64,000 bases of DNA from Yinghuangia seranimata (lineage in GTDB: Bacteria; Actinomycetota; Actinomycetes; Streptomycetales; Streptomycetaceae): assembly GCF_029953285.1 (NCBI RefSeq), contig NZ_JASAOI010000037.1, positions 62,001 to 126,000 on the forward strand. Direction: 5' to 3'. Shown in pieces: positions 25,529 through 33,838 of this stretch. A program made the position numbers and the translations under genes. Each line of letters begins with the position of its first letter. The first letter of the stretch is position 1. Below the pieces are notes generated by a model. That model searched no databases. It was not told where the DNA came from and was given only the letters and a program-made list of their open reading frames with translations.

Positions 25529-26494
25529 ATGAGCAACCCCCGCGGCCCCGTCGACTCCTCCCGCATCCCGCGCTACGCCGGACCCGCCACGTTCGCCCGG
25601 CTGCCGCGCCTGGACGAGGTGCCCCGCGCCGATGTCGCGGTGGTCGGCGTCCCCTTCGACACCGGGGTCTCCTTCCGCCCCGGCGCGCGTTTCGCCCCGA
25701 CCGCGGTCCGCGAGGCGTCGCGGCTGCTGCGGCCGTACCACCCCGCGTTGGACGTGCACCCGTTCGGCACGCAGCAGGTCGCGGACGCCGGCGACATCGC
25801 GGTGAACCCCTTCGACATCAACGAGGCGATCGAGACCATCGAGCACGAGGCCGGCGAACTCCTCGCGGCCGCCGGCAGCCTGGTGACCATCGGCGGGGAC
25901 CACACCATCGCACTGCCGCTGCTGCGCGCGGTCGCCAAGCGGCACGGCCCGGTCGCGGTCCTGCACTTCGACGCCCACCTCGACACCTGGGACACCTATT
26001 TCGGCGCCGAGTACACCCACGGCACGCCCTTCCGCCGCGCCGTAGAGGATGGCGTCGTCGACACCGAAGCACTCAGCCACGTCGGCACCCGCGGGCCGCT
26101 GTACGGCAAGCGCGACCTCGACGAGGACCGCCGGCTCGGCTTCGGCATCGTCACCTCCTCGGATGTGATGCGGCGCGGCATCGACGAGACCGTGGACGCG
26201 CTCCGCGCCCGGATCGGCAACCGCCCGCTGTACGTCTCCATCGACATCGACGTCCTCGACCCCGCGCACGCACCCGGGACCGGAACCCCCGAAGCCGGCG
26301 GCATGACCTCCCGCGAACTCCTCGAAATCCTGCGCGGCCTGGCCGGCCTCAACCTCGTCGGCGGCGACGTCGTCGAGGTCGCCCCCGCCTACGACCACGC
26401 CGACATCACCTCCATCGCCGCCTCGCACGTCGCCTACGACCTGGTCAGCCTCCTGGCCCTGGCCGGCGACGACAACGGAGCGGTGTCTCCGTGA
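25529..26494 (+). CDS. Ureohydrolase: agmatinase or guanidinobutyrase
   Basis: 321 residues. Mn-binding motifs of the arginase/agmatinase family: GGDHT (122-126), DAHLDTWD (148-155) and [22 protein letters not shown] (from 237). The enzyme releases urea from a guanidino group: agmatine gives putrescine, 4-guanidinobutyrate gives 4-aminobutyrate. Length and the amidase/permease neighbours favour guanidinobutyrase, but motifs alone cannot separate the two. Its last 61 bp overlap the tail of the convergent reductase-like gene, an unusual long overlap. Confidence 0.92.
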
Positions 26495-30655: not shown

Positions 30656-31225
30656 CTACTTGTTGGCGAGTCGGGCCTTCTTGACCCTGTTGCCGCAGGT
30701 GTTCATCGAGCACCAGCGGCGGTTCGCCCCGCGGCTGGTGTCGAGGAACAAGCCCGCGCAGCCGGGGCCTTCGCATGCCCTGATCCGGTCGCGCTCGGGG
30801 CCTCCGAGTACGTGTATGGCGTCGGCGGCGAGCACGCCGAGCGCATCCCGTACCGGTGCCTGCTCGCCGAGGTGCCACACCGCGAGCCCGTTCTCGAGCG
30901 CGAGCCTGGGCTGTCCGGCGGTCGCGGCCCCGTTCAATATCGCCACGTCACCCGGATCGGGTCGCCGGGCGGTAGTGACGGCCAGACCGGCACGGTAGAT
31001 CGCTTCCCTCAGGCTGAGCGCGTCCTGAAGCTCGGCGGGTGAGACGTCGGGGACGCCGAGCTCCGCGGCATGCAGCCAGAGCTTCAGCCGGCCGCCGCTG
31101 GAGAGCCGCTCCCGGGGCGCCGCGCCGGCCCGGTCGCTCAGCGTGGCGGTGAAGCGGAACGCCAGCACCTCGTTGTCCAGCCGGAACAGTTGACGGCCCT
31201 CCACGGTCACCACCTTCCGCACCAC
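30656..31225 (-). CDS. CGNR zinc-finger (ABATE-domain) regulator
   Basis: 189 residues from a GTG. The N-terminal ABATE-type region ends in an alpha-helical core (DALSLREAIYRAGLAV), and the C-terminus holds the CGNR finger: IRACEGPGCAGLFLDTSRGANRRWCSMNTCGNRVKKARL, four cysteines and the name-giving motif. These proteins are predicted stress-response transcription regulators. It is divergent from an imine-reductase-like dehydrogenase with two matching 19-bp palindromes between them, so it probably controls both genes. Confidence 0.92.
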   Translation of the reverse strand: MVRKVVTVEGRQLFRLDNEVLAFRFTATLSDRAGAAPRERLSSGGRLKLWLHAAELGVPDVSPAELQDALSLREAIYRAGLAVTTARRPDPGDVAILNGAATAGQPRLALENGLAVWHLGEQAPVRDALGVLAADAIHVLGGPERDRIRACEGPGCAGLFLDTSRGANRRWCSMNTCGNRVKKARLANK

Positions 31226-31240
31226 CAGAGACCGCTACCT

Positions 31241-31306
31241 GAACCAGCTTAACCGGTTCGACACAGGCATCGACCCGCGCCACAATGGAACCGTCTTAGG
31301 CGGTTC
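31241..31306. promoter_or_regulatory. Twin 19-bp operators flanking a divergent promoter
   Basis: GAACCAGCTTAACCGGTTC (31241-31259) and GAACCGTCTTAGGCGGTTC (31288-31306) share GAACC-NN-CTTA-NN-CGGTTC and begin 47 bp apart. Between them are TCGACA (31258-31263) and CACAAT (31281-31286), 17 bp apart, a promoter for the dehydrogenase. One site overlaps the -35 box, the other covers the transcription start. Confidence 0.75.
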
Positions 31307-31322: not shown

Positions 31323-32186
31323 ATGGGCGAGGTTGCTGTCATCGGACTGGGCGGGATGGGGCGGGCGATCGCGCGCAATCTCGTGCGGGCAGGCCACGAG
31401 ACCGTGGTGTGGAACCGCTCGGCGGGGCCTGCGGAAGAGCTCGCGCAAGCCGGTGCTCACCGCGTTGCATCTGTCGCGGAAGCCCTCCAGTGTCCGGTGG
31501 TGTTCTCGGTCCTTTCCGACGACGCATCCGTCGCGGAGGTCTTTCTCGACTCCGGCGTCCTCGGCCAGGCCCGACAGGCAACGGTCCACGTCAACGTCGC
31601 AACGGTGAGTGTCGGGCTGGCCCGCCGTGCCGCAGAGGCGCACGTCGCGCACGGGATCGGCTATGTCGCCGCCCCGGTGTTCGGCCGGGTCAGCGTCGCG
31701 GAGGCCGGTTCGCTGAACGTCCTCGCGGCAGGAGAGCCCGAACTCATCGACCGGGTCCAGCCGTTCTTCGACGTGATCGGATCCCGCACCTGGCGCCTAG
31801 GGGAGCTGCCCGAGCAGGCAAACATCGCCAAGATCCTGGGCAACTACCTGATCGCCTGCGCGATCCAGTCGCTCGGGGAGGCGGTCAGCGTCGCCTCCGC
31901 GGCCGGCACCGACCCGGGCCGGTTCGTCGAACTGCTGGCGTCGACGCTCTTCCCCGGACCCGTCTACTCCGGATACGGGTCGATGATCGCGCAGCGGACA
32001 TACCAGCCGGCCGGATTCACCGCGGCACTCGGCCGCAAGGACCTCCACCTCGCCCTTGACGCAGCCGCCGGCCAAGCAGTCCCCTTGCCGTTCGGCGAAC
32101 TGCTCAGGGACGTCTTCGACCGGACAATCGCCGACGGCCACGCAGCGGACGACTGGGCGGTGATCGCCGAACAGCAGCCGCGATGA
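31323..32186 (+). CDS. NAD(P)-dependent oxidoreductase, beta-HAD/imine-reductase-like
   Basis: 287 residues. Rossmann loop VIGLGGMGRAIARNL (from residue 7), a second-domain helix ANIAKILGNYLIACAIQSLGEAV carrying K171 and N175 in the positions of the beta-hydroxyacid dehydrogenase catalytic pair, and the all-helical C-terminal dimer domain. The family includes 3-hydroxyisobutyrate, tartronate-semialdehyde and glyoxylate reductases and imine reductases; the specific reaction cannot be read. GGAGG lies just upstream. Control by the divergent CGNR protein is likely. Confidence 0.9.
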   Translation: MGEVAVIGLGGMGRAIARNLVRAGHETVVWNRSAGPAEELAQAGAHRVASVAEALQCPVVFSVLSDDASVAEVFLDSGVLGQARQATVHVNVATVSVGLARRAAEAHVAHGIGYVAAPVFGRVSVAEAGSLNVLAAGEPELIDRVQPFFDVIGSRTWRLGELPEQANIAKILGNYLIACAIQSLGEAVSVASAAGTDPGRFVELLASTLFPGPVYSGYGSMIAQRTYQPAGFTAALGRKDLHLALDAAAGQAVPLPFGELLRDVFDRTIADGHAADDWAVIAEQQPR

Positions 32187-32666: not shown

Positions 32667-33127
32667 GGCCGGCTCCGTGCGACGGGGGACAGGACACCGC
32701 CACCGCTTCCCACCGCCGGGCCGCCGCACACCGACGACGCCCGTCCACCACCCGGACAGACGCGGCCCCGGCTGCATGCGGAGCCCGGTGGCGGCCAGGG
32801 CCGCCCGCGCCGACCAGCTCGGCGGCCCGCGCGTGGACGCGGCGCAGGACACGCTGTTCGCGCTGCACGACCTCGCGACCGTGCCGGTCGTCGCTGAGGC
32901 CACCCGCCGGTCGGCGGAGGAGCCGGTGGTGGCGCCCGGGTCGGGCAGGTGCGGGACGACGTCCGGGCCGCCTTCTGATTGCATTCCTGAGGCCGGCTGC
33001 GTCCGGTCGGGTAGGCGGTCGTCATGGACGCGGACGAGTCAGCGTCGGGACCTTGGTCGCCGAGACGGGGCGGCGGCAAGACTCGTGCTACCAGGTAGTG
33101 AACTCGGGGCGGGGGGCGAAGCGACTG
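32667..33127. other. 460-bp stretch without an intact gene; possible gene remnant
   Basis: In one plus-strand frame, 32776 to about 32940, the translation DQLGGPRVDAAQDTLFALHD followed by LATVPVVAEATRRSAEEPV looks protein-like, with helical pattern and normal codon use, but has no clear start, RBS or stop context. It may be a decayed gene fragment. Promoters for the small secreted gene and the phosphatase must also lie here. Confidence 0.35.
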
Positions 33128-33838
33128 ATGGGCACGGTCGGTAGTAGGGAGCTTTCGTGGGATGGCTGCGTCAACATCCGGGACTTGGGCGGTTTGGGGA
33201 GGATGAGGCGAGGTGCGGTCGTGCGCATGGAGGCGCCGACACGCTTGAGCGCCCAGGGGTGGGCGGCCGCCTGGGCGTACGGGGTTCGAACCATCGTTGA
33301 TCTGCGCCATCAGGACGAGTGCGAGCCGGATCTCGCGGAGAGACCGGCAGGGATCGCCCTCACCCGGGTGCCGCTCGACCCGGAGGCGGGTACTCCGTTC
33401 CACGAGCGCTGGTCGAAGATCGACAACCTGGCTTCTCCGCTCTACTTCCCGGCGCTGCTGGCGGAGCACCCGGAGACAATCGTGGCCGCCGTACGCGCGG
33501 TTGCCAACGCCGCGCCGGGATGTGTGGTGATCCACTGCGCGGGCGGCAAGGACCGCACGGGAATCCTGTCGCTGGTGTTGCTCACGCTGGCCGAAGCCGG
33601 GCCGGAGGAGATCATCGCGGACTATCTGCGGACGTTCGACTGCATGAAGCCTCGATTCGATGAACTCGGAGCACGCGATCAGCTCACCGCGGTCACCGAG
33701 ACGCTGGCGAGCCACGGCACCTCGATCGAGGCTTCGCTCACCTCGACCATCACCTCGTTGGCGATGCCGGACTTCCTCCTCGAAAACGGCCTGAATAGCG
33801 ACGAACTCAGCGCACTCCGCGCCCGCTTGACCGCCTGA
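33128..33838 (+). CDS. Tyrosine/dual-specificity protein phosphatase
   Basis: 236 residues from the ATG at 33128. The phosphatase loop is VVIHCAGGKDRTGILS: Cys137, then five residues and Arg143, with the K-D-R-T form known from actinobacterial lipid/protein phosphatases such as MptpB. N-terminal NIRDLGGLGRMRRGAVVRMEAPTRLS and TIVDLRHQDECEPD are the family's early strand and general-acid region. It acts on phosphotyrosine, phosphoserine/threonine or phosphoinositides; substrate unknown. Four Ser/Thr kinases in this window could be functional counterparts, by inference only. Confidence 0.9.
   Translation: MGTVGSRELSWDGCVNIRDLGGLGRMRRGAVVRMEAPTRLSAQGWAAAWAYGVRTIVDLRHQDECEPDLAERPAGIALTRVPLDPEAGTPFHERWSKIDNLASPLYFPALLAEHPETIVAAVRAVANAAPGCVVIHCAGGKDRTGILSLVLLTLAEAGPEEIIADYLRTFDCMKPRFDELGARDQLTAVTETLASHGTSIEASLTSTITSLAMPDFLLENGLNSDELSALRARLTA

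Follow-up and report, generated by a model that had tools for sequence, protein, structure and literature searches.

The 64,000-nucleotide stretch of Yinghuangia seranimata DNA analysed here (the window) carries, between a gene for an ABATE-CGNR protein and a divergently oriented gene for a dehydrogenase-like enzyme, two copies of a 19-bp sequence, and raises the question of which protein reads these copies and with what effect. The presence of duplicate 19-bp sites at these positions (Table 1) had been put forward in the original prediction, whose pattern, GAACCNNCTTANNCGGTTC, both copies match with 0 mismatches. They are identical to each other at 15 of 19 positions, as was claimed; the "asymmetric CTTA core" noted there is not a defining feature, since each site is a near-perfect odd palindrome, of consensus GAACCGTCT-N-AGACGGTTC, and the core is largely palindrome itself. 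When 60 sites from 30 loci are aligned (see below) the consensus becomes GAACCGTCTTAGACGGTTC; CTTA occupies positions 8-11 in 28 of the 60, versus 3 of 60 in the reverse orientation, and CTNAG is found in 40. At the centre base (31250 and 31297 in the window), read on the dehydrogenase strand, T occurs 36 times and A 5 times among 66 sites, three doubtful pairs included. This bias goes beyond what a symmetric dimer explains; it may reflect common descent.

Table 1. Features of the divergent locus; positions are those of the window.
Feature	Position	Strand	Details
ABATE-CGNR regulator gene	30656..31225	-	189 aa from GTG 31225; Pfam zf-CGNR 7.7e-18, ABATE 3e-16
Lys183 codon (X of CG-Z-xx-K-X)	30677..30679	-	proposed reader of half-site base 1 (G); covariation, 88 loci
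Asn179 codon (Z of CG-Z-xx-K-X)	30689..30691	-	proposed reader of half-site base 2 (A); covariation, 88 loci
Operator 1	31241..31259	.	GAACCAGCTTAACCGGTTC; overlaps upstream edge of predicted -35
Predicted -35 TCGACA	31258..31263	+	columns T18 C18 G16 A13 C13 A12 of 18 loci
Predicted -10 CACAAT	31281..31286	+	17 bp past -35; A and T invariant in 18/18 loci, outside operators
Operator 2	31288..31306	.	GAACCGTCTTAGGCGGTTC; spans predicted dehydrogenase transcription start point
Beta-hydroxyacid dehydrogenase-like NAD(P) enzyme, predicted target	31323..32186	+	287 aa; NAD_binding_2 1e-32, NAD_binding_11 5.6e-16 (Pfam)

The window contains four strand-matches at three mismatches or fewer against 0.87 expected, a number reached in one of 100 shuffles. 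Throughout the 9.8-Mb assembly, about 98% complete, the two operators are the sole places with 0-1 mismatch to the pattern of the original prediction, and a GAACC-N9-GGTTC pair occurs a single time at the spacings searched. The palindromic consensus GAACCGTCTNAGACGGTTC has no further place in the assembly at fewer than 3 mismatches, operator 1 itself standing at 4. The shuffles, this assembly-wide uniqueness and the rarity of pairs in other genomes rule out a chance origin of the sites.

In the regulator the ABATE domain precedes zf-CGNR, both scoring above the Pfam curated cut-offs; its zinc cysteines are Cys151, 156, 172 and 177, and the CGNR motif comprises residues 177-180. Translation probably begins at the GTG at 31208-31210 (codon 6) rather than at the first GTG, at 31225, because the matches of many homologues start at residue 6; 30 bp separate the end of operator 1 from this likely start codon. 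The dehydrogenase has 4gbj as its nearest solved chain (1.6e-56); it matched 21 NCBIfam models, reaching the cut-off of none. The K of its AKILGN aligns with the K of VKLAGN in 4gbj and is a candidate for the catalytic lysine. Elsewhere in the window, ORFs 25529-26494 and 33053-33838 we take, by eye, to resemble agmatinase/arginase and tyrosine phosphatase.

The sites had also been placed over the -35 region and the start point of the dehydrogenase promoter, an assignment backed by hexamer conservation: the 18 loci with sites spaced 47 bp apart share a TCGACA-like -35, a 17-bp spacer and a CAYNNT -10, lying between the sites or at their edge. With the hexamers 17 bp apart in 18 loci, operator 1 falls over the edge of the predicted -35, whose T and C double as operator bases, and operator 2 begins just past the predicted -10, which ends one base ahead of it. 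Relative to the predicted start point, near 31293, the operators are centred at about -43 and +5.

Absence of the motif before orthologous CGNR-dehydrogenase pairs had been named as grounds for giving up the idea. A protein-similarity search gave 63 CGNR loci, 34 of them with a dehydrogenase match by tblastn, and 33 of these were retained, L032 being left out for CGNR and dehydrogenase matches that overlap on one short contig; L039 and L042 were excluded as cut off and L070 as a 13-residue match. Both sites are kept, as a pair, in 29 of the 33 relatives sharing the divergon, 43-48 bp apart and with no more than two of a site's ten fixed bases mismatched; the remaining four, all Planotetraspora, have a single exact site. 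Apparent pairs in Planotetraspora (L036, L040, L041) were rejected as spurious because one of the two sites carries 2 mismatches and seems to fall within a coding region. With the window included (30 loci), 18 loci have the sites 47 bp apart, 7 have them at 48 bp, 3 at 46 bp, and one each at 44 and 43 bp. The ten fixed bases of operator 1 are exact in 27 of these loci and carry one mismatch in 3; those of operator 2 are exact in 24, with one mismatch in 5 and two in 1, counts that contradict the notion of operator 2 as the better-conserved copy. Bases 1-4 and 16-19 are invariant across all 60 sites.

Does the motif belong to the regulator or to the dehydrogenase? Pairs of GAACC-N9-GGTTC sites were searched for on DNA alone in 659 distinct genomes. 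Across 296 genomes of the class, with a start-to-start distance of 39-59 bp allowed, 4 genomes matched; across 391 of the order, with 34-64 bp allowed, 12 did. Reversed-pattern controls gave 0 among the genomes listed. Thirteen of the 14 distinct places recovered, window included, immediately precede a CGNR gene, as recognised by an HMM from CGNR relatives, and the fourteenth (L071) is a tandem repeat. The neighbour of the 13 is the dehydrogenase in six (the window and five others) and another gene in seven: in Pfam terms an alpha/beta hydrolase (L072, L080), an epoxide hydrolase (L083) and a LysE translocator (L074), with L079 and L081 looking like alpha/beta hydrolase loci and L084 like an epoxide hydrolase locus. 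Five of the 13 had already been found by protein, their upstream 130 bp being identical (L075=L023, L076=L025, L077=L029, L078=L030, L082=L024), as it is for L124=L055; L193 and L194 coincide with L075 and L076. A search for more closely set pairs, with a gap of 2-12 and GWACC in the second site, yielded four distinct places in 296 genomes, two adjoining a CGNR gene (L124, L127) and two being direct repeats without one.

Approached from the enzyme, a dehydrogenase match at 1e-60 was present in 10 of 197 genomes of the order. Homologues with a CGNR neighbour have the pair in five of five cases, window included (one mismatch per site in L190, one mismatch in one site in L192), and those without a CGNR neighbour in none of five, among which L196-L198, at just 49-51% identity, are doubtful orthologues and the match of L195 starts only at residue 41. 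At L191:1100-1560 a dehydrogenase homologue 76% identical has no adjoining CGNR gene and no operator 1, and retains the -10 together with operator 2; the most similar CGNR protein of that genome is 41% identical. Regulator and operator 1 have apparently been lost together there, in what looks like a natural deletion. With CGNR genes beside 13 of 14 places and the pair absent from five homologues without one, the motif tracks the regulator; on these comparisons it goes with the CGNR protein and not with the dehydrogenase, of which the other neighbours and the 0/5 homologues rule it out as a property.

How far the motif extends through the family is a separate matter. The CGNR finger is matched 10 times in this genome, and no GAACC-N9-GGTTC at 0-1 mismatch lies upstream of the nine other CGNR genes (L119 has one 2-mismatch match). 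Among the PF11706-ranked loci listed, the exact motif occurs in 0 of 30 (L090 has one 1-mismatch match), which rules out GAACC as a trait of the entire CGNR family. An exploratory AACC-N9-GGTT peak (8 of 38 loci), predicted beforehand to recur in 60 hold-out loci, failed there (2/60) and belongs to one clade; for N17 and N18 the prediction held weakly (3/60 each). The top-ranking 6-mer, AACACC, was discarded as an operator, since most of its occurrences encode a conserved stretch of protein.

On a tree of 148 CGNR proteins (relatives, 30 and 60 loci among the PF11706 matches listed, and the genome's own paralogues) operator type is strongly clustered, with 15 changes versus a shuffled mean of 57.6, 8 of the 148 rows having been found by motif. 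In the window's clade, a set of 80 loci compiled by hand from the tree, 69 have WACC-N9-GGTW in the 250 bp upstream, and each of the other gaps between 5 and 19 gives 0-4; nine of these loci had come in through the motif, and without them the count is 60/71, window included. Control patterns in the clade reached 11 (gap 17) and 9 (gap 7) for GGTW..WACC and at most 6 for CCAW..WTGG. The 70 loci outside the clade gave N18 in 17, N17 in 8 and N9 in 1, so that the majority of them have no such site; 200 shuffles of these loci gave a mean of 0.40 and a maximum of 3 for N18, and 0.45 and 4 for N17. Long sites form tandems too, with spacings of 41-42 bp in L087, L100, L114 and L140, of 47 bp in L062, L063 and L066, and of 30-37 bp in L153, L168 and L188. 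Inverted xxACC half-sites recur in two phyla, separated by 9 bp in the clade that includes the window and by 17-18 bp in some of the other loci, and often in tandem; this recurrence suggests a rule that would hold for much of the family.

In a further set of loci the sites are just 24-25 bp apart, the second mostly with a GTACC edge (L045, L049, L050, L054, L055, L057, L058, L064, L124, L127); the neighbour in L045 and L058 is an MFS transporter.

The CGNR helix was then taken to be C-G-Z-x-x-K-X, and each half-site was divided into base 1, base 2 and ACC, with a search pattern that admits just A or T at base 2. Leaving out 14 loci found by motif, 114 had a readable helix; a site was present in 88, window included, and absent from 26. 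Counted by half-site, Asn at Z goes with A at base 2 in 202 of 216 (T in 14) and Ala, Ser or Val with T in 42/42; Lys at X goes with G at base 1 in 145 of 150 and any other X with G in 0/108. By locus and strict majority the figures are 68/72 for Asn-A (four ties; 70/72 when ties are not set apart), 16/16 for Ala/Ser/Val-T, 43/44 for Lys-G (one tie), and 0/44 for a majority of G with other X. The window protein, CGNRVKK, fits GAACC. The Met-TT type is seen in 9/9 loci at N9 and in 7/7 at N17/18, and so crosses both spacing classes. Met and TT each change three times on the tree, and Lys with G is confined to the window's clade; the covariation comes down to 2-3 independent pairs on the tree, and the Fisher p-values ignore kinship. 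Z and X stand four residues apart, one turn of a helix, and Asn-A and Lys-G are classical protein-DNA contacts. The edge bases thus follow two residues past the fourth zinc cysteine, and this, with the 13/14 linkage of motif and gene, bears out the CGNR protein as the likely binder that the original prediction had named.

Almost no site was found for RYCDSRTCGNRLHV-type CGNR proteins. The helix lies outside C-G-Z-x-x-K-X in 44 of 172 CGNR loci (for example L130, L137, L158, L186), many of these helices being of the RYC..CGNRLHVAAYRAR-type, with no W and no K before X; a WACC inverted site (gap 9, 17 or 18; within 260 bp) was found in L162 and L183 alone among the 44.

Chloroflexota provided loci outside the set in which the rule took shape. 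One genome, Ktedonosporobacter (G659), has 17 CGNR finger matches, a marked expansion; 16 of the 17 were read, and one of these is the gene of L043, a locus that the earlier set contained. Three new loci there have sites, L203 and L208 fitting the first rule and L218 not, and the two-position rule was framed after this misfit and before the phylum test. That test took in 201 genomes and 67 of at least 77 places outside Ktedonosporobacter, ten being left out as near contig ends, short frames, weak matches or a near-copy. N18 sites were present in 23 of the 67 loci (shuffle mean 0.55, maximum 4), N17 in 9 (0.64, 3) and N9 in 7 (0.72, 4), several of the last overlapping N18 sites; controls reached 7 for GGTW..WACC (gap 21) and 3 for CCAW..WTGG. 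Fifty-three helices were readable, 32 of them with a site, and the rule set beforehand agrees at base 2 in 30/32 and at base 1 in 31/32, the remainder being ties and some of the loci being closely related to one another. At base 2 this breaks down into Asn-A in 26/27 (one tie), Ser-T in 4/4 and a tie for one Ala; base 1 is not G in 31/32, with one tie. No phylum test locus has Lys at X, so Lys-G lay outside the blind set. Neighbouring sites in tandem are 47-48 bp apart in 7 of 16 pairs and 30-78 bp apart in the others. On balance we regard it as quite likely that the two residues of CG-Z-xx-K-X choose bases 2 and 1 of inverted xxACC half-sites, that the spacing, either 9 or 17-18 bp, is characteristic of a clade, and that tandems, mostly near 47 bp, recur in Actinomycetota and Chloroflexota.

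For the window, the two palindromes would then be operators of the divergently encoded ABATE-CGNR protein, each taking one dimer whose two zinc fingers would read the inverted GAACC half-sites, Asn179 reading the A of base 2 and Lys183 the G of base 1. That this protein binds both sites and controls the promoter locally is, to judge from the covariation and linkage, highly probable. Neighbourhood by itself is no proof of regulation, and the sites might serve another regulator of the dehydrogenase, the CGNR gene being a mere neighbour; that the DNA-only matches adjoin CGNR genes with varied partners, that the pair is missing from the five dehydrogenase homologues without CGNR, and that the edge bases follow CGNR helix residues make this very improbable. 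A reading of the palindromes as RNA hairpins in the leader is more improbable still. Operator 2 would indeed fall in the 5' end of the dehydrogenase transcript, and in operator 2 of L028 bases 5 and 15 are both changed with pairing kept; but operator 1 is located upstream of the promoter, C5 faces A15 in operator 2 of L008, and symmetry is low, bases 6-14 being matched in 37 of 66 sites and 7-13 in 25 of 66, three doubtful pairs included.

The step from binding to repression is taken because of site geometry: protein bound to operator 1, at the -35, and to operator 2, across the start point, would block the dehydrogenase promoter, and repression is on these predicted positions the probable outcome. 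Operator 1, centred near -43 and touching an imperfect -35, would suit an activator too, and the CGNR protein could bind there in a class II-like position and activate the dehydrogenase, with operator 2 tuning or repressing; but operator 2 covers the predicted start point, the usual position of a repressor, and we consider activation unlikely. In the preferred case, repression, operator 1 would also provide autoregulation, adjoining as it does the CGNR start, and a small molecule on the ABATE domain, plausibly the dehydrogenase substrate, would free the protein from the DNA. Most likely, then, the regulator acts locally, repressing both the dehydrogenase gene and its own until a ligand releases it.

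A CGNR match above cut-off is present in 102 of 148 sampled genomes of the class, and the presumed targets among the divergent neighbours comprise the dehydrogenase, alpha/beta and epoxide hydrolases, MFS and LysE transporters, and a ketopantoate-reductase-like enzyme. If the code is true, protein sequences could serve to predict the operators throughout a large orphan family of regulators; together, the operator defined here, the two-residue rule and the neighbour set would make the family's targets predictable and testable, and the family could yield new biosensors. Among the papers that a full-text literature search listed, with most subscription journals outside its scope, no title deals with a CGNR operator.

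The nearest characterised relative is Jann_2411 (PDB 3h0n; PF07336 and PF11706), reported to be dimeric, with a zinc finger of the treble-clef type (PMC2954205). It is proposed there to be a ligand-responsive dimeric DNA binder; the passages covered infer its DNA binding, name no operator and do not contain the word 'promoter' (PMC2954205). As there described, 3h0n is like the window protein in its ABATE and CGNR domains and its treble-clef finger with 2+2 cysteines, although the sequence match is just E 0.0036, and the palindromic sites of the window fit its dimeric state. The enzyme shares NAD_binding_2 and NAD_binding_11 with the beta-hydroxyacid dehydrogenase / imine reductase superfamily (4gbj). 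TetR-type divergons are alike in having a local regulator, a single divergent target, paired palindromic operators over the promoter and a presumed small-molecule inducer; they are unlike it in that the DNA-binding part of the window regulator is a C-terminal zinc finger, its Pfam matches being ABATE and zf-CGNR alone, with none to a TetR helix-turn-helix domain. The window system would work like a TetR divergon, then, and its regulator is not a member of the TetR family.
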